A DNA stretch of 64,000 nt from assembly GCA_019637445.1 (NCBI GenBank), contig JAHBVS010000002.1, positions 310,001-374,000 of the forward strand, written 5' to 3'. The notes under the pieces were generated by a model, which was not told the origin of the DNA, made no database searches, and saw only the letters and a list, made by a program, of their open reading frames with translations. The translations under genes and the position numbers were made by a program. Below, in pieces: positions 11,813-60,815 of the stretch. The stretch's first letter is position 1; each line of letters begins with the position of its first letter. The DNA is from Gemmatimonadaceae bacterium (GTDB lineage: Bacteria; Gemmatimonadota; Gemmatimonadetes; Gemmatimonadales; Gemmatimonadaceae).

Positions 11813-11830
11813 GCTACAACTGAAGTCGTA

Positions 11831-11889
11831 AGTTGTGAGTCATGAGTCGTGAGGAACGACTCACAACTCACGACTCATGACTCACCACT
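11831..11889. repeat. heptad-repeat hairpin, copy 1 of the ACTYAYN family
   Basis: Between the ArsR-methyltransferase gene and ahcY. The left arm is a run of 7-nt units of form NRTRAGT (CGTAAGT, TGTGAGT, CATGAGT, CGTGAGG); the right arm carries the complementary units ACTCACA, ACTCACG, ACTCATG, ACTCACC. A 19-bp perfect pairing joins 11835-11853 to 11867-11885, offset by one unit, leaving a 13-nt loop. There is no T-run. A related AACTGAAGT motif lies just left and CCCGCATCC just right (about 11913), both shared with the copies near 57.5 and 60.7 kb. Confidence 0.85.
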
Positions 11890-11929
11890 GCCGTTATCGC
11901 TCTTCCATCACCCCGCATCCGAGTCGCCA

Positions 11930-13447
11930 ATGACCGCCATCGCTCCCAACGCCCACGCCTTCGACGCCGCCAAGTCCGCCGGCCGCGAGCCGTTCAAGGT
12001 CGCCGACATCTCCCTCGCCCCCTGGGGCCGCCAGGAGATCCGTCTCGCCGAGTATGAGATGCCGGGCCTGATGGCCCTGCGCGCCGAGTACAAGGGCAAG
12101 AAGCCGCTCGCCGGTGCCCGCATCATGGGCTCGCTGCACATGACCATCCAGACGGCCGTGCTGATCGAGACCCTGACCGAACTCGGCGCCGACGTGCGCT
12201 GGGTGAGCTGCAACATCTTCTCGACGCAGGACCACGCTGCCGCCGCCGTGGTGGTCGGCAAGGATGGGTCGGTCGAGCAGCCGCGCGGTACGCCGGTGTT
12301 CGCCTGGAAGGGCGAGACGCTCGAGGAGTACTGGTGGTGCACGGACCAGGCACTGCTGTGGCCGGACGGCCAGGGCCCGAACCTCATCCTCGATGACGGT
12401 GGCGACGCCACGCTGCTCATCCACAAGGGCACCGAGTACGAAGCCGCGGGCAAGATCCCGGCCTTCGACGCGGCCAACGAGCCCGAGGAGTGGGGCGTGA
12501 TCCTCGACCTCCTGCGCAAGACGCACAAGGAGGACCCGAAGCGCTGGACCAACGTCGGCAAGGCGATCAAGGGCGTCTCGGAGGAGACGACGACCGGCGT
12601 GCACCGCCTCTATGAGATGATGCAGGCGGGCACGCTGCTGTTCCCGGCCATCAACGTGAACGACTCGGTCACCAAGTCGAAGTTCGACAATCTCTACGGC
12701 TGCCGGCACTCGCTGACCGACGGCATCCTCCGCGCCTCGGACGTGATGCTCGCCGGCAAGGTCGCCGTCGTGCTCGGCTACGGCGACGTGGGCAAGGGCT
12801 CGGCGCAGGCCTTCAAGGGCCAGGGCGCGCGCGTCGTGATCGTCGAGATCGACCCCATCTGCGCGCTGCAGGCGGCGATGGAAGGCTACCAGGTCGCCAC
12901 GCTCGATGACGTGGTGAGCACCGCCGACATCTTCATCACTGCCACGGGCAACGCGGACATCATCACCGCGGCGCACATGGCGAAGATGAAGGACAAGGCC
13001 ATCGTCGGGAACATCGGCCACTTCGACAACGAGATCGACATGGCCGGTCTCAAGAAGATGGCGGGCGTCAAGCGCAACAACATCAAGCCGCAGTTCGACG
13101 AGTGGATCTTCCCGGACGGCCACTCGGTGCTGATCCTGGCCGAAGGCCGCCTGCTCAACCTCGGCTGCGCCACGGGCCACCCGTCGTTCGTGATGAGCTG
13201 CTCGTTCACCAACCAGGTGGTGGCGCAGGTCGACCTGCACCTCGCCGCGCAGGGCAAGGAGACGGTGTCGGGCACCAAGTACGACGCCAAGAAGGTCTAC
13301 GTGCTGCCCAAGAAGCTCGACGAGAAGGTGGCGCGCCTGCACCTCGACAAGCTGGGTGTGAAGCTGACGAAGCTCACGGAGAAGCAGGCGGCGTACATCG
13401 GCGTGCCGGTGGATGGGCCGTATAAGTCGGACCACTACCGGTACTAG
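11930..13447 (+). CDS. ahcY: adenosylhomocysteinase (S-adenosyl-L-homocysteine hydrolase)
   Basis: A 505-residue NAD-dependent enzyme that splits S-adenosylhomocysteine into homocysteine and adenosine, relieving product inhibition of methyltransferases. Signatures include [14 protein letters not shown], the substrate-binding DDGGD segment, [21 protein letters not shown], the NAD loop [22 protein letters not shown], and C-terminal KSDHYRY that closes the partner active site. It has the long insert typical of bacterial enzymes. It starts at ATG 11930, about 45 nt after the heptad hairpin. The preceding ArsR-methyltransferase is probably its regulator. A compound hairpin follows the stop. Confidence 0.97.
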
Positions 13448-13555
13448 GACGAAGGTTGTAGGACGAAGGACGGAAGTGAACGGCGGCGCGAGTCCAAGGA
13501 TTCGCGCCGCCGTTTGCCGTTTGCTTCCGTCCTTCGTCCTCCGCCCTCCGTCCTC
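13448..13555. repeat. compound hairpin of 7-nt units between convergent ahcY and propeller gene (probable two-way terminator)
   Basis: Outer stem of 17 perfect base pairs (13460-13476 with 13524-13540), built from 7-nt units: AGGACGA/AGGACGG on the left, and TTCGTCC, TCCGCCC, TCCGTCC on the right. Inside lies a second, GC-rich perfect 11-bp stem (13481-13491 with 13502-13512). It fills the whole gap between the ahcY stop and the stop of the convergent minus-strand gene, so it can fold on either transcript. It shares architecture, not sequence, with the ACTYAYN copies. Confidence 0.8.
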
Positions 13556-14806
13556 CTACTTGAGCACGTCCACCCCTCCCGCCTGCTGCCCGACCTCGAC
13601 CGTCGCGACCACCCGCAGCGCGCGCAGATCAATCACGTCCACCGTCGCCTTCTCCGAACCGACGCCTTCGTTGGTGATGAAGGCGTAGCGGTCGTCGCTG
13701 GTCACGGCGGCACCGTGGGTGACGCGCTTCGATGTCGGGATGCGGGCCAGCTCGCGGCCGCTCTGCGTGTCGAAGACGGAGATGGACTGGCCGCGCTTGT
13801 TGGTGCCGATGAGCAGGCGGCCGTCGTGCGTCACGGCGAGGTTGTAGACGCCGGGGCCGGCCGGAATGCGCCGCAGCAACGACCACGAGGCCACGTCCAC
13901 CTCGACGATCTCGCTGGACTTGTTGCAGGCCACCCAGATGCGTGTGCCGTCGGCCGAGGGCTGCGCCCAGGTCGGCGAGCAACTCACATCGCCGGGCTTT
14001 GGGGGCTCGAGGCCGTGCCCGCCCATATCGTGGCCGGCGTGCGCGGCATCGGCGAGCCTGCGCTTGGGCGGTGCACCATCGCGCCCCTGCTCCTTGCCGC
14101 CGGTGAGCAGAAAATGGCGTGTGACGCCGAAGCGCTCGGCGTCAATCTCCACCATCGCATCGTCCATCATGCAGGCGGAGTAGTGCCGCGTGCCCGCAGG
14201 ATTCAGGCGCGAGCCGTGCGGCATCGTGCAGGTCTCGACGCGCGCGATTTCGATCATCGCGCCGGTCTCCACCACCGACACCGACGAGGTGACCATCTCG
14301 CCGTGCAGGTTGAAATTCACCGCCCACACATACCAGCCGTTGGGACTGACCTGCGCCGTAGCGGGGAATGGCCCCAGCGTGATGCGGCCCAGCGGCGTGT
14401 CGTCGGCCCGGCGGAACTTCCAGAGATCGCCGCCCGGGATGCCGTGCGCGGTGGTGACGTAGTAGAACTCGCCGTCGGGGCTCAACGCGACGCCGTGCGG
14501 GCCGTCGGGGTCGGTCATCGAGATGCCGACCGGCACGACCTTGTCGAGCCGCGCACCCTGCGGCCCGAAGACAATGCGCGAGACTTCGTCCACGGACTCG
14601 GAGACGACGTAGGCCACATACTCGCGCTCGACGGGAGAAGGCTCAGGAAGCATCCGAGGCGAGAGACGCGCCGTGTCCGGCGCGCCCTCGGTGAGGATGC
14701 GTGGCTCCAGCCGTGCCTGATCGGCGGGGCGCGGCGCACAGGCCATCGCCCCGAGCAGCAACCCCATCGCAGCGATTGCGCCGCCACCGAAACGCACAGG
14801 CGTCAC
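13556..14806 (-). CDS. YVTN beta-propeller lipoprotein
   Basis: A 416-residue protein. The start is placed at the GTG whose TGA overlap (GTGA) couples it to the upstream gene; it then begins with a hydrophobic stretch ending in lipobox LGAMAC. Repeated propeller blades are visible: DGPHGVALSPDGEFYYVTT, NLAVTHDGRLLIGTN, HGAAVTSDDRYAFITN. A His-rich loop AHAGHDMGGHG and conserved Cys/Met/His could bind metal. Proteins of this type are surface or periplasmic; some resemble nitrite-reductase d1 propellers, but heme ligands are not evident. It is the second gene of a pair with the LVIVD protein. Function unknown. Confidence 0.75.
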   Translation of the reverse strand: MTPVRFGGGAIAAMGLLLGAMACAPRPADQARLEPRILTEGAPDTARLSPRMLPEPSPVEREYVAYVVSESVDEVSRIVFGPQGARLDKVVPVGISMTDPDGPHGVALSPDGEFYYVTTAHGIPGGDLWKFRRADDTPLGRITLGPFPATAQVSPNGWYVWAVNFNLHGEMVTSSVSVVETGAMIEIARVETCTMPHGSRLNPAGTRHYSACMMDDAMVEIDAERFGVTRHFLLTGGKEQGRDGAPPKRRLADAAHAGHDMGGHGLEPPKPGDVSCSPTWAQPSADGTRIWVACNKSSEIVEVDVASWSLLRRIPAGPGVYNLAVTHDGRLLIGTNKRGQSISVFDTQSGRELARIPTSKRVTHGAAVTSDDRYAFITNEGVGSEKATVDVIDLRALRVVATVEVGQQAGGVDVLK

Positions 14807-41505: not shown

Positions 41506-41602
41506 GTTCCAGGTCCCGGGGGGCTTCGGCCCGCCAACCCCGCCAGGGCCGAAAGGCAGCAACGGTACGTGGAGTCCATCGCCGCTCCGTCAGGCCTGGA
41601 AC
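41506..41602 (+). ncRNA. ffs: signal recognition particle RNA, small bacterial (4.5S) type
   Basis: About 97 nt. The ends GTTCCAGG (41506-41513) and CCTGGAAC (41595-41602) pair perfectly. The apical domain contains GCCAGGGCCGAAAGGCAGCA around 41541-41560, matching the conserved Ffh-binding hairpin with a GNRA-like tetraloop and the A-rich asymmetric loop. The gene lies just upstream of dnaX, as in many bacteria. Promoter and T-run terminator flank it, so it is an autonomous unit. The RNA works with Ffh and FtsY in cotranslational membrane targeting. Confidence 0.9.
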
Positions 41603-41605
41603 ACT

Positions 41606-41655
41606 CTCGCGCGCTTGATTCGTCTCGCAAGGACGGATCGGCGCGCGAGTTTTTT
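41606..41655 (+). terminator. rho-independent terminator of the SRP RNA gene
   Basis: CTCGCGCGC (41606-41614) pairs perfectly with GCGCGCGAG (41641-41649), followed directly by TTTTTT (41650-41655). The loop is long (26 nt). It lies 4 nt beyond the RNA 3' stem. The T-run merges into the left arm of the large inverted repeat. Confidence 0.8.
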
Positions 41656-41846
41656 GCCACAGAGGCACGGAGACACAGAGCGGCACGTGGGGCGAATCTG
41701 AACTCTGTGTCTTCTTTCAGTTGGCACTTTGGGGGGTGCGGCGGACAGATCTGTCCGCCGCACCCCCTTTGAAGTTGCCGTTGGCCTAGACACAGAGGGG
41801 TCGGAGTGCGGGGATGCCCTCTGCGTCTCTGTGCCTCTGTGGCAAA
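41653..41846. repeat. 194-bp nested inverted repeat with 8-nt units and a 36-bp perfect palindrome core
   Basis: Three nested stems. Outer: 41653-41680 with 41819-41846, 28 nt with one G-T and one mismatched pair; its arms are degenerate 8-nt units, CTCTGYGN on the right and the complement on the left. Middle: CTCTGTGTC (41703-41711) with GACACAGAG (41789-41797), again the same unit. Core: a perfect 36-bp palindrome, 41732-41767, centred on the AGATCT at 41747-41752. No coding potential. It fills most of the ffs-dnaX gap and could form a long cruciform or RNA hairpin. Confidence 0.88.
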
Positions 41847-41850
41847 GCAG

Positions 41851-41880
41851 TTCGCCGTTCCCGCATCCAACGGCTAAATT
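41851..41880 (+). promoter_or_regulatory. putative dnaX promoter
   Basis: TTCGCC (41851-41856), 18-bp spacer, TAAATT (41875-41880), in the context CGGCTAAATTC that also surrounds the ffs -10 box. The start would be near 41887, only about 5 nt before the dnaX ATG, so no room for a ribosome site. Confidence 0.5.
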
Positions 41881-56566: not shown

Positions 56567-57089
56567 TGGTCTTGCCCTCCAGGGGCCAGTGTTCGCTGCG
56601 GCACTTGGCCGGCGTGGTGAATGCCAGCAGCCCGAACATCGCGTAGAGGATCCGCGTGCCGAGGGCCGGCTTGCCCGTCTCGACGATCTGCTTGAGCGTG
56701 TTCACGATGAAGTCGCCGCCGCGGGTCATGTCCTTGGCGGTCTTGGTGCCGACGGGCACGTCCTCGGAGATCAGCGTGAACTCCACGCCACCGGCGACCT
56801 CCTTCAGTTCGTAGGTCACCTTGCAGTAGGGGTCGTCGTGCGCGGTGAACTTCATCGTGTGCGAGAAGCGGTGCGGGGGCGTGACCTCGAGGATCTCGCC
56901 GACCACGGACGTGAACTTCGCGTCCGGCGTGCGCATCTGCACCGGCGAGCCCGCGCTCAGCGCGCGGTAGCGCATCTGCGCGCCGAAGAACGCGAGTTGT
57001 GGCGTGTCGGTCTTGGTGATCTCACGCCAGACGTCGTCGATCTTTCCGCGAATCACGACGCGCGACACGAGCTTGACGGTCTCCGCCAT
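56559..57089 (-). CDS. SRPBCC/AHSA1 family protein
   Basis: A 176-residue START-like fold: SRVVIRGKIDDVWREITKTDTP at the start, then VVGEILEVTPPHRFSHTMKF, CKVTYELKEVAGGVEFTLISEDV and a C-terminal helix (FIVNTLKQIVETG). Proteins of this type are very often paired with an ArsR regulator, as here. They bind small hydrophobic ligands or act as Aha1-like cochaperones. The ATG has AGGGGG 5 nt upstream, inside the ArsR gene, so the 68-bp overlap between the two frames seems real. Confidence 0.85.
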   Translation of the reverse strand: MAETVKLVSRVVIRGKIDDVWREITKTDTPQLAFFGAQMRYRALSAGSPVQMRTPDAKFTSVVGEILEVTPPHRFSHTMKFTAHDDPYCKVTYELKEVAGGVEFTLISEDVPVGTKTAKDMTRGGDFIVNTLKQIVETGKPALGTRILYAMFGLLAFTTPAKCRSEHWPLEGKTNG

Positions 57090-57456
57090 CCGATCCCCCT
57101 TGGGTCTCTGCAGGTTGTGGGTGTTCGATTGCGTACTTCACGTCCGCCATCTTGCTGCCCCAGAAGCCGCCGTACTCGGTGGTCCAGCGGTCGTAGATGA
57201 GCTGGATGGGGACGGGGTTGTGGAAGAGCTGGCGGACGCGGCCTTCCTTGAGCGAGATGACCAGGCCGCTGTCCTCGAGGATGCGCAGATGGTGCATCAC
57301 GGCGACGCGGGTGGTGTCGAAATGGCCCGCGAGCTCGCCGACGCTGATGCCTGGGGTCAGGCGCAGCAGGTCGAGGATCTGTCGACGCGTGGAGTTGCCC
57401 AGGGCGTCGAAGACTTCGGCCATGTCGTCGAGGGTGGAGGCGGGCTGGTCTCGCAT
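57022..57456 (-). CDS. ArsR-family transcriptional regulator
   Basis: A 144-residue winged-helix protein: VFDALGNSTRRQILDLLRL, ISVGELAGHFDTTRVAVMHHLRILEDSGLV and the wing KEGRVRQLFHNP, followed by IYDRWTTEYGGFWGSK. No Cys metal site, as usual in the SRPBCC-linked branch. The last about 25 residues overlap the SRPBCC gene in another frame and are highly charged. A 9-bp inverted repeat with a 12-nt spacer covers the start codon. A TATTTT box and a TTGCGC box 16 bp apart predict a leaderless transcript. Confidence 0.88.
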   Translation of the reverse strand: MRDQPASTLDDMAEVFDALGNSTRRQILDLLRLTPGISVGELAGHFDTTRVAVMHHLRILEDSGLVISLKEGRVRQLFHNPVPIQLIYDRWTTEYGGFWGSKMADVKYAIEHPQPAETQGGSDGGDRQARVARRDSRKDRRRLA

Positions 57457-57481
57457 ATGTAAGAAAATATTGACATATGCG
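57452..57481. promoter_or_regulatory. operator over the ArsR start codon
   Basis: CGCATATGT (57452-57460) and ACATATGCG (57473-57481) are perfect inverted 9-mers around a 12-bp AT-rich spacer that contains the minus-strand -10 TATTTT (57468-57463). The ATG (57456-57454) is inside the left arm. Bound repressor would block both polymerase and initiation, fitting autorepression of the three-gene operon. Confidence 0.75.
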
Positions 57482-57526
57482 GGATGCGCAAGGGGGCTGA
57501 GGGATGCGGGGGAACGGCGGTCGTGA

Positions 57527-57617
57527 GTTGTGAGTCGTGAGTTGTGAGTAAAAGGCGGATGCGGGTCACTGCGCAGCCCGCATCCTCACTCACTACTCAC
57601 AACTCATAACTCACAAC
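57527..57617. repeat. heptad-repeat hairpin, copy 2 of the ACTYAYN family
   Basis: Between the ADOP permease gene and the ArsR gene. The outer stem pairs 57527-57550 with 57594-57617 (24 nt, two mismatches), each arm holding three to four 7-nt units (TGTGAGT and CGTGAGT on the left; ACTCACA and ACTCATA on the right). An inner perfect 9-bp stem, GGATGCGGG (57557-57565) with CCCGCATCC (57577-57585), closes an 11-nt loop. CTGCAGTTG follows the right arm. Three flanking GGGATGCG words lie at 57481-57510. Confidence 0.88.
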
Positions 57618-57650
57618 TGCAGTTGTCAGGCTAGATCCAGCGGCGTCCGC

Positions 57651-60278
57651 CTAACCCGCCCGCAGTGCCCGCATTGGACTCACCCGCGTGGCCCGGGATG
57701 CAGGGATCCACGAGGCCAGCACCGCCACCAATAGGATGGCTGCGGCGACCGCAGCGACGGTGAGCGGGTCGCGCGGGGCGACGCCGAACGCGAAACGGCT
57801 CAGCACCCGCGAGGCGGCGAGGAAGGCGACAATGCCGATCGCTGCGCCGACGGCGGCGAGGCGCAGGCCTTCGGCCAAGAGCATCCGTCGAACGCGCGCG
57901 GGCAGCGCGCCGAGTGCAAGGCGGACACCGATCTCGTGCTGGCGGGCGCCGACGACCTGCATCAGCTGGCCGAAGAGGCCGAGCATCGTGAGCACGACGG
58001 CGACCACGGCGAAGGTGGCCAACAACATCAGTGAGAAGCGGCGCGGCAGTGAGGCGGCGCGCTGCAGTGATTCCAGCGTGACGGACTCGTTGCTTGGTAC
58101 GGGGCCGAGTTCCTGCTCCATCGCCTCGGAGACTGCGGCGAGCGCCGCGCCGCCGCGCGTGGCGCCGCGCGCGATCACGAACACGCTGGCCGTCGGCGAC
58201 TGCGCGTGTGGCACATACACGGCCGGTCTGCCCGCTGTCTCCATCGAGGTATAGCGCAGGTCGGGCACCACGCCGACAACTCGTCGCGCTGCCGCATTGG
58301 CCGGGCTGTTGCCGATCAACAGCGTCTGGCCGACTGGGTCCAAGTCGCCGAAGTAGCGGCGGGCCGCCGCCGCCGAGATCACGGCGACCGGTTCGCCGCT
58401 CAAGCCGTCGAACTCATTGAACACGCGGCCCTGCAGCGCCGGCACGCGCAGCGCATCGAAGAATCCCGGGCTCGCGACGACGGCGTACAGCTGCTGTCCG
58501 TCGTCGAATCCGGGGCGCTGCACGAAGGCTTCGGTGGAGCCGATCTCAGCCGCCAAGGGCAGCGACGAGGCCACGCCAGCCGCCGCGATGCCGGGCGTCT
58601 GCTTCAGGCGCGACTCCATCGCCCGGCCGGCGGCCTCACGCTCGGCGTCGCTGCGGCGCAGATGCCAGAAGTGTTGCTCCACGCCGACCACGCCGCTCGC
58701 ATCGTAGCCCTGCTCGGTGGCCATCAACTGCGACCAGGAGCGCAGCAGCAGGCCGCCCGAGCAGAGCAGCGTCACCGAGATGGCGATCTGCGCAGCGGTG
58801 AGCACGGTGCGCAGCCGCCGCCCGCCGCGCGAGGAGGCGTCGGAGCCGCCGCGTAATGCGTCGTGCAGGTCGCGGGCCGCGAAACGAATTGGTGTGATTC
58901 CCAGTACCAGTGTCACCGCGACGGTGACGCCGATGCCAAGCCAGACTGAACGCGCGTCCACGCCGAGCTCGGCAAGGCGTGGCACGGAGGATGGCACCCA
59001 GCCGCGCAGCAGCTGCAGGCCGACGGCGCCAAGTGCGAGTCCCAGCGCGCCAGCCGCGGCGCCCAGCAGCGCCGACTCGGCGAGCAGCTGCCGCGTGATG
59101 CGCGTGAGGCCGGCGCCGACGGCGGCGCGCACCGCGAGTTCGCGCGCGCGGCCCATCGTGTCGGAGAGTAGGAGCCCCGACGCGTTGGCCACGGCCAGCG
59201 TCAGCAGCAAGAGTGCGCCGACACCCAGCAGCAGGAGCGCGGGCCGCACGCCGCCAAGCACGGACGCGTCGAGGCGTTCAACGATGAGTGTCCGTGTGCC
59301 GGCACTCGGTGGCGCGAGCGCGTCGCTGCGTTGTGCCAGTGTCGTGAGCTCGGCGACGCCGGTCTCGTATGCGACGCCCTCCTTGAGCCGCCCGAACGCG
59401 GACCAGAAGTCCGCGACACGGTTTTCCCGGGCGTTGCCCACGGGGATGATGGGCACGAAGAAGTCGCGGCCGTCGAGCAACGGAAAGTCCTGCGGCAGCA
59501 CCCCGACGATGGTCATCGGTGTGCCATTGAAGCGCTGGCTGCCGCCGATGGACTCGGGTCGGCCACCGAGGTGCCGCTGGAAGAAGTCGAACGACACCAC
59601 GATGCTGGGATCGCTGCCGGCGACGAAGTCGCGGGCCTCGAGCAGTCGCCCGCGATGCGGCTGTGTGCGCAGCGCGTCGAAGTACGACCGGGTCACGCGC
59701 CAGGTGCCGATGTTGAGCAGCTCGCCGTCGCGTTCGATCTCGAGGCTGTAGGGCTGCGCCGCGGCGATGGCTGCGAAGCTGCGACTGCCCTCGGCGAGAT
59801 CGAGCGCCGTGCCCACTGCGAGGCCGTTGCGCAGCTCGGCGTTCCGCGGATCGCCGCGCCAGAGCGTGACCAGACGGTCCGGCGCCTCGAGCGGCAGCGG
59901 CCGCAGCAGGATGCGATCCACCGCGCCACCGAAAGCCACGAAGGTGCCGATTCCGAGTGCCAGCGCGGCAACGGCGGCCGTGGCGAGCACCGGATGCCGC
60001 CGCATCCGCCGGCCGGCGAAGCGCAGGTCCATCACGAAGTCGTGCAGGGCGCCGAGTGCGCGGCGTTTGCGGCGGTCGGCCTGGGCGTACCCGAGCAGGT
60101 CGGTCTCGAGTGCCTCGCGATCGCCCATCCGCGCGGCCACCCGCTCCGCGACTTCATCCTGCGGCACGCCGGCGCGTTCGAGGTCTTCCTGCGCGAAGGC
60201 TTGGTGCGCGTCGAGTTCCTCGCGGATCTCCTTGCGCAGCTCGTCGTCGGACGGGAAGGGGAGTTGGAAGTCCGACAT
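57651..60278 (-). CDS. ADOP-type ABC transporter permease (MacB/FtsX fold, duplicated)
   Basis: An 875-residue inner-membrane protein of the acidobacterial duplicated orphan permease type. A cytosolic helical N-terminal domain (about 1-85; ELRKEIREELDAHQAF, VAARMGDREALE) is followed by two MacB-like halves, each with a large periplasmic domain and FtsX helices: GRRMRRHPVLATAAVAALALGIG, FSSAFGRLKEGV-like region, LAVRAAVGAGLTRITRQLL, and in the second half LRTVLTAAQIAISVTLL and IGVRLALGALPARVRRML, ending SPMRALRAG. It lacks an ATPase in cis, hence orphan. The PadR gene lies directly upstream, the usual pairing. Substrates are unknown; export or efflux is likely. Confidence 0.92.
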   Translation of the reverse strand: MSDFQLPFPSDDELRKEIREELDAHQAFAQEDLERAGVPQDEVAERVAARMGDREALETDLLGYAQADRRKRRALGALHDFVMDLRFAGRRMRRHPVLATAAVAALALGIGTFVAFGGAVDRILLRPLPLEAPDRLVTLWRGDPRNAELRNGLAVGTALDLAEGSRSFAAIAAAQPYSLEIERDGELLNIGTWRVTRSYFDALRTQPHRGRLLEARDFVAGSDPSIVVSFDFFQRHLGGRPESIGGSQRFNGTPMTIVGVLPQDFPLLDGRDFFVPIIPVGNARENRVADFWSAFGRLKEGVAYETGVAELTTLAQRSDALAPPSAGTRTLIVERLDASVLGGVRPALLLLGVGALLLLTLAVANASGLLLSDTMGRARELAVRAAVGAGLTRITRQLLAESALLGAAAGALGLALGAVGLQLLRGWVPSSVPRLAELGVDARSVWLGIGVTVAVTLVLGITPIRFAARDLHDALRGGSDASSRGGRRLRTVLTAAQIAISVTLLCSGGLLLRSWSQLMATEQGYDASGVVGVEQHFWHLRRSDAEREAAGRAMESRLKQTPGIAAAGVASSLPLAAEIGSTEAFVQRPGFDDGQQLYAVVASPGFFDALRVPALQGRVFNEFDGLSGEPVAVISAAAARRYFGDLDPVGQTLLIGNSPANAAARRVVGVVPDLRYTSMETAGRPAVYVPHAQSPTASVFVIARGATRGGAALAAVSEAMEQELGPVPSNESVTLESLQRAASLPRRFSLMLLATFAVVAVVLTMLGLFGQLMQVVGARQHEIGVRLALGALPARVRRMLLAEGLRLAAVGAAIGIVAFLAASRVLSRFAFGVAPRDPLTVAAVAAAILLVAVLASWIPASRATRVSPMRALRAG

Positions 60279-60719: not shown

Positions 60720-60815
60720 GGATGCGGGTTGAACTGCAGTTGTAAGTCGTGAGTCGTGAGGAGGAGTGCTCCTCCCTCACCACTTACCACTCATGACTCA
60801 CAACTTCCCGTATCC
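60720..60815. repeat. heptad-repeat hairpin, copy 3 of the ACTYAYN family
   Basis: Between PadR and mnmA. Outermost GGATGCGGG (60720-60728) pairs with CCCGTATCC (60807-60815), eight of nine with a G-T. Inside, the left arm has three NRTRAGT units (TGTAAGT, CGTGAGT, CGTGAGG) and the right arm four complementary units (ACTTACC, ACTCATG, ACTCACA preceded by CCTCACC), so one arm has an extra unit. A GAGGAG/CTCCTC stem caps it. AACTGCAGTT (60732-60741) is shared with copy 2. The remaining 60615-60719 has no gene. Confidence 0.88.

Follow-up and report, generated by a model that had tools for sequence, protein, structure and literature searches.

Which function is served by a long hairpin whose arms repeat a single seven-letter word and which stands shortly behind a stop codon? 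This question is raised by an element at 57.5 kb of a 64,000-nt stretch of DNA (the window) from the 3.35-Mb genome of a Gemmatimonadaceae bacterium, the genome under study, referred to here as G000. Read directly from the sequence, the element spans 57522-57618 and consists of a GGATGCGGG/CCCGCATCC stem with a loop of 11 nt, enclosed by two arms in inverted orientation, each with four AGTNRTR/ACTYAYN heptads (Table 1). A 151-nt stretch containing it folds with -80.6 kcal/mol, compared with -50.4 (sd 4.2) for shuffled sequences (z -7.2), and none of 200 shuffles is as good. Both the direct reading and the fold agree with the original prediction of an ACTYAYN copy with an inner stem at this place.

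Table 1. Hairpin at 57.5 kb, its neighbours and further hairpins of the window.
Feature	Position	Strand	Basis or detail
Left cap word AACGGC	57513-57518	.	sequence
Left sleeve, four NRTGAGT heptads	57522-57549	.	CGTGAGT TGTGAGT CGTGAGT TGTGAGT
Inner stem, 5' half, GGATGCGGG	57557-57565	.	sequence, fold
Inner stem, 3' half, CCCGCATCC	57577-57585	.	sequence, fold
Right sleeve, four ACTCAYN heptads + ACT	57588-57618	.	ACTCACT ACTCACA ACTCATA ACTCACA ACT
Right end GCAGTT of the 57.5-kb copy	57619-57624		sequence
ADOP-family permease gene	57651-60278	-	TIGR03434; stop codon 32 nt from right sleeve
ArsR/SmtB-type regulator gene, downstream of the 57.5-kb element	57022-57456	-	NF033788
Copy between ArsR-methyltransferase gene (stop 11812) and ahcY	11820-11920	.	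sleeves 11824-11889; CCCGCATCC 11912-11920 unpaired
Second-dialect hairpin, AGGACGN heptads, inner AACGGC/GCCGTT	13441-13559	.	sequence
CACAGAGN octad hairpin	41650-41870	.	between SRP RNA gene (41508-41603) and next gene (41892)
Copy 3' of mnmA (stop side 60825)	60720-60815	.	sleeves 60738-60760, 60776-60805; inner stem GGAGGAG/CTCCTCC

The heptad arms are called sleeves below and the stem between them the core. Most copies of the element end in AACGGC/GCCGTT or AACTGC/GCAGTT. According to the sequence at the locus, no T run follows the sleeve at 57.6 kb. The element itself has no Rfam match above the gathering score, the SRP RNA being the sole such match in the window. The plasmid proteins closest to the ADOP permease belong to Gemmatirosa (33% identity). 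A near-palindrome, CATATGTAAGAAAATATTGACATATG (window 57455-57481), lies where the ArsR-type gene begins and is a likely autoregulatory operator.

The word of the inner stem is found ten times in the window where 1.9 occurrences of GGATGCGGG are expected. At 60.7 kb, GGATGCGGG (60720-60728) faces CCCGTATCC (60807-60815) with one G.U pair outside the heptads, and the word does form the outermost stem of that copy, as had been claimed. The companion claim, that it flanks the copy at 11.9 kb, holds in the sense of flanking only: CCCGCATCC lies about 20 nt outside the copy, unpaired and with no upstream GGATGCGGG partner. Two further hairpins are written in other words. The AGGACGN hairpin fills the space between the stop codons of ahcY and a beta-propeller-like gene, which converge, and the second one is made of octads; a perfect palindrome of 36 nt (41732-41767) lies within this octad hairpin, 3' of the SRP RNA gene.

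Across the G000 genome, ACTCAYNACTCAYNACT gives 158 matches with at most one mismatch and the reversed pattern 16. At least 29 loci carry the AGTNRTR dialect (28 fetched and one at C2:596025). These copies share one plan: AACGGC/AACTGC, about four AGTNRTR units, a variable centre which is often a GC stem, about four ACTYAYN units and GCCGTT/GCAGTT. Counted loosely, four or five units are present in 37 of 44 arms; in a congener, G072, arms have about three. Within 100 nt of the 28 elements there are 36 occurrences of the word GATGCGG/CCGCATC (4.9 expected); 18 of the 28 have it at this distance, and in seven it lies inside. The modules in variable nesting order that had been proposed from a few copies are therefore a genome-wide trait, and the observation which was to overturn them, absence of the module from other copies, is not what these 18 copies show. 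The GGATGCGGG module is itself partly a heptad array, since GGATGCGGGATGCGG with at most one mismatch has 25 matches and its reversed control one. A single hairpin of 249 nt (L046:2151-2399) nests CACAGAG-type octads, GGATGCG words and AACGGC words. It is because of the tandem GGATGCG heptads, the AGGACGN and octad hairpins and this nested hairpin that the term 'modular' is correct. The G000 element is best stated as a GC stem with species-dialect heptad sleeves, GGATGCG being a second heptad word. At L048:4702-4774, about nine ACTCACG-type units follow each other in a row with no left arm, apparently an expanded single-arm copy.

Where do these elements stand relative to genes? Genes were called with a home-made codon model and one hand correction (the ArsR gene was added). 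The relevant stop codon is at most 36 nt away in 24 of the 26 G000 elements with usable gene context; this count excludes one element that overlaps a called gene, and an earlier count excluded two. Of 27 elements, 19 lie between tandem, seven between convergent and one between divergent genes, and the stop side is the nearer one in 15 of the 19 tandem cases. Background gaps of at least 100 nt are 53 tandem, 11 convergent and 10 divergent, and the depletion between divergent genes is by itself modest in this genome (1/27 vs 10/74). In G072, 59 clusters of GACGGAN units are distributed over 44 tandem, 12 convergent and one divergent context, two being without flanks. Here the distance to the stop is at most 41 nt in 41 of 56 cases and 64-760 nt in the other 15, and the stop side is nearer in just 28 of 44 tandem cases. 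This set is noisier: many clusters have one arm, and most stretches were picked by plus-strand matches. Left arms are consequently over-represented, and single-arm copies were not used for the test of C-rich transcripts. In a word-free survey of nine genomes, four of 94 intergenic stems lie between divergent genes.

If the pairing of the sleeves were kept, the free letter of the heptad should covary across the hairpin. This was examined in 21 two-armed copies of G000, one of 22 being too short for the 31-nt arm test. At the free letter, 27 of 84 pairs are Watson-Crick, and permutation predicts 30.8 (sd 4.0). For one of the two purine positions the same test yields 55 of 84 with an expectation of 55.2. 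The GACGGAN dialect of G072 (29 copies) behaves in the same way, with 29 of 74 pairs against 30.2 (sd 3.0). Covariation of paired variable letters was thus found by permutation neither in the AGTNRTR dialect of G000 nor in the GACGGAN dialect of G072. In G000 the four fixed letters (AGT and the T of position 6) are kept in 523 of 528 instances, positions 4, 5 and 7 being variable. Together these results place the constraint or homogenisation on the heptad itself and not on pairing. Furthermore, the outer N triplets look shuffled between G000 copies (19 distinct ones among 44 arms, 19.5 expected) and the centres differ. The copies are therefore not recent duplicates of one hairpin, and their arms were not copied by folding back. 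So the word is maintained separately on each arm by something.

A heptad hairpin of this kind was found at the 3' end of mnmA in none of the 16 congeners read, and for this reason slots at other genes were compared in place of single-locus conservation. The citrate synthases of the congeners are about 87-92% identical to that of G000, and the slot 3' of the gene holds a GC stem in eight of nine species. The sleeves there read AGTNRTR in G000, AGACGGA in G300, GGACGGA in G072, AGCTNTA in G298 and, on the left arm only, in G128, AGATGGG in G299, GGATGAA in G205 and AGGTGNG in G125; G182 has a plain stem. At groEL, judged by eye, G000, G300, G299, G205 and G125 have their own dialects, G072 and G128 are irregular and G182 is again plain, without sleeves at either slot. 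Around ahcY, AGACGGA occurs both before and after the gene in G300, where G000 has ACTCAYN and AGGACGN. Of 16 genomes with a match, 12 allowed this slot to be read, and in four the C-terminus was not found; among the other ten readable genomes, G128 and G298 show irregular purine-rich arms at the 3' end and the others plain stems or none. The G000 gene-end word is thus replaced by other heptads at the same slots in congeners, often around a GC stem. In the word-free survey, lag 7 is the strongest of lags 3-12 in the intergenic stems of eight of nine genomes, the exception being G182 with three stems.

Two of the words were counted genome-wide. The two-unit GACGGAN pattern GACGGANGACGGANG has 427 matches in G072, 236 in G300, 36 in G000, 29 in G298 and 0-4 in 13 others (controls 0-1). 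The exact two-unit AGTNRTGAGTNRTGAG has 97 in G000 (control 0), 8 in G128 and 0 in 14 others, as well as 29 in G299, a count on which we do not lean as its control has 11. With a wide pattern the control can be as high as the signal, namely 15 and 15 in G070 and 0 and 26 in G212, and no weight is placed on these either. That close relatives set a different heptad around the same gene ends suggests some unexplained process by which a single short word comes to be spread over the gene-end signals throughout a genome. Two other repeats were seen in congeners: in G086 (L092) a short direct repeat of another kind, (TGAGTCTCGCG)n, stands at the 3' end of mnmA, and in G128 (L116:4130-13341) near-identical GCGGTTG...CAACCGC stems recur about 0.6-3 kb apart in the manner of a cassette array.

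Four observations enter our reading of the element: its anatomy, its 3' position, the absent covariation and the change of dialect at the same slots. We think it probable, though well short of certain, that it is a bidirectional 3'-end element with sleeves in species dialects, which most likely terminates transcription or else marks a 3' mRNA boundary. Its GC-rich core stem stands just 3' of the stop codon, set within two sleeves of about four inverted 7-nt units, and the sleeves lengthen the hairpin. On either strand the 5' sleeve is rich in G and purines and the 3' sleeve in C and pyrimidines. For either direction of the polymerase, the RNA:DNA hybrid of the 3' arm would be weak and easily pulled out by the long hairpin. 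Since the heptad letters are kept and the pairing of variable letters is not, the word is also maintained as a word, which would be the work of a species-specific reader factor or of a homogenising copying process.

The polarity of the arms is consistent with this reading. G exceeds C in the 5' arm in 54 of 56 period-7 stems and in 25 of 38 other stems, and the 3'-arm hybrid is the weaker one in 47 of 56 and 26 of 38, respectively; hybrid energies used nearest-neighbour values, and the counts are non-independent because copies within one genome share a dialect. Pair counts of the cores are circular, as cores were picked by pairing, and serve solely to show that a stem is present. Compared with an intrinsic terminator, the stable stem just after the gene is there, and in place of the U tract after the stem comes a sleeve. 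Most sleeves have no clear T run after them, so the elements do not show the form of a classical intrinsic terminator, and weak T-rich tracts follow some cores. The original prediction had taken the nested modules as unlike a terminator, an inference that finds no support: the copies lie 3' of genes, and the corresponding slots of relatives hold plain terminator-like stems or stems with other heptads. Another idea was that the period of seven supplies stop codons in three frames (TRA in each AGTNRTR unit); it was rejected, as the AGACGGA arrays of G300 and the AGTTGGG arrays of G128 contain no stop codon.

Could the heptads have grown passively? Polymerase slippage at hairpins may expand short repeats, 3' gaps being harmless places for them, an account that deserves attention and that we hold to be unlikely. 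Single-arm and long perfect arrays do exist, as in the nine units at L048, and only five of 69 ACTCAYN arrays from other phyla, among the matches listed, have both arms within 130 nt. Rehm et al. 2015 (PMC4692102) also cite slippage as a hypothesis for the origin of heptamers. However, one word at dozens of unlinked loci with unrelated cores would not be expected from slippage, nor would N letters that are saturated next to fixed letters so well kept. Nor would a local process be expected to give caps, arms of about four units or pairing in inverted orientation.

It is rather unlikely, too, that the units serve as an array of binding sites on the DNA for a nucleoid protein or global regulator (IHF/HU-like or ribbon-helix-helix, for instance), the hairpin being incidental. 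Such an array would explain sequence-level constraint without covariation, and Aklujkar et al. 2009 (PMC2700814) read the paired tandem octads and heptads of Geobacter metallireducens in this way. The gene-end position argues against it, as the elements are nearly absent between divergent genes, the usual place of regulators, and share their slot with plain terminator-like stems of relatives.

A bolder reading, which we regard as doubtful, is a 'dialect-writing' system of the genus: a process, neither transposon nor reverse transcription, would build or rewrite 7-nt units singly around terminators already in place, treating the two arms separately. A genome would speak one or few words and its sisters others, and an RNA- or DNA-binding factor that co-evolves with the words might read them.

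Molecular drive of the kind known from the DNA uptake sequences (DUS) of Neisseriaceae appears improbable. A word favoured in transformation would accumulate in 3' gaps that tolerate it, frequently as inverted pairs where terminators lie, and each species would have its own dialect. DUS do have species dialects and inverted pairs at terminators (PMC3630211), and the GACGGAN counts given above are dialect-like. DUS, however, are single 10-12-mers, commonly found within genes too and in thousands of copies, whereas the elements here are arrays of tandem units, number from tens to a few hundred per genome and are almost only intergenic.

REP/REPIN elements are dispersed 3' palindromes, species-specific and associated with a RAYT transposase, and have no heptad design. 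Dispersion in many copies and species-specific sequence are common to them and the elements described here, and a mobile palindrome (REP/RAYT or MITE type) or a product of reverse transcription may be considered on this ground. We judge it very improbable. Neither Y1_Tnp (PF01797), the RAYT-type transposase, nor RVT_1 (PF00078) was found in any of eight genomes, with positive controls; cores differ, outer N triplets are random-like, and phage and plasmid records contain no match to the element.

The chance of a G-quadruplex array, as proposed for the Xanthomonas and Nostoc heptads (PMC4692102), which likewise have four units and inverted pairs close to stop codons, is negligible: neither AGTNRTR nor GACGGAN contains three consecutive G, and the sleeves cannot form a three-tier quadruplex. 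This refutes it for the AGTNRTR dialect and, judging by the G-poor unit, rules out quadruplexes as the general reason.

The architecture of paired heptads is already in print. Rehm et al. 2015 describe GGGANTN arrays in Xanthomonas and GGGGA(T/C)T arrays in Nostoc, on average 28 nt from the upstream ORF and rare between divergent genes (PMC4692102). The G000 element shares with them the 7-nt unit with fixed and variable positions, about four units (their mode), many inverted pairs and an intergenic position close 3' of an ORF. In contrast, its word is different and lacks G tracts capable of quadruplexes. The enclosure of a GC core, the change of dialect at one slot and the missing covariation are features of the G000 set that do not appear in the accessible text of that paper, which states that intergenic heptamer repeats of bacteria had been noted and left unexplained. 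In G. metallireducens, 3-5 tandem units of 7-9 nt (GTTGCTYN, TCTCCGTS[Y], MTYCTGA) form opposite-strand pairs, and TCTCCGTS resembles the 41.6-kb octads of our window (PMC2700814). Unlike the elements here, these sites are interpreted as those of IHF/HU or global regulators, and a comparison of slots is not part of the accessible text. The TAACTGA repeats of Beggiatoaceae are heptad direct repeats across distant phyla, but they lie mainly 5' of start codons and are not inverted (PMC4679880). In the open-access literature we met no description of the dialect-per-slot pattern or of the missing covariation, which is no proof of absence.

Three things that used to be mixed are told apart by the present data: the GC core, the sleeve kept as a word and the unselected pairing at variable letters. 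As species differ in the word they use at the same gene ends, the idea that something reads or copies it becomes testable. Among the matches listed in a scan of named genomes, ACTCAYN arrays occur in many phyla, a statement on spread and not on frequency. On a Cloacimonadota contig (L239:2181-2340), ACTCAYN heptads adjoin CACAGAGN octads, the same two word families as in G000.
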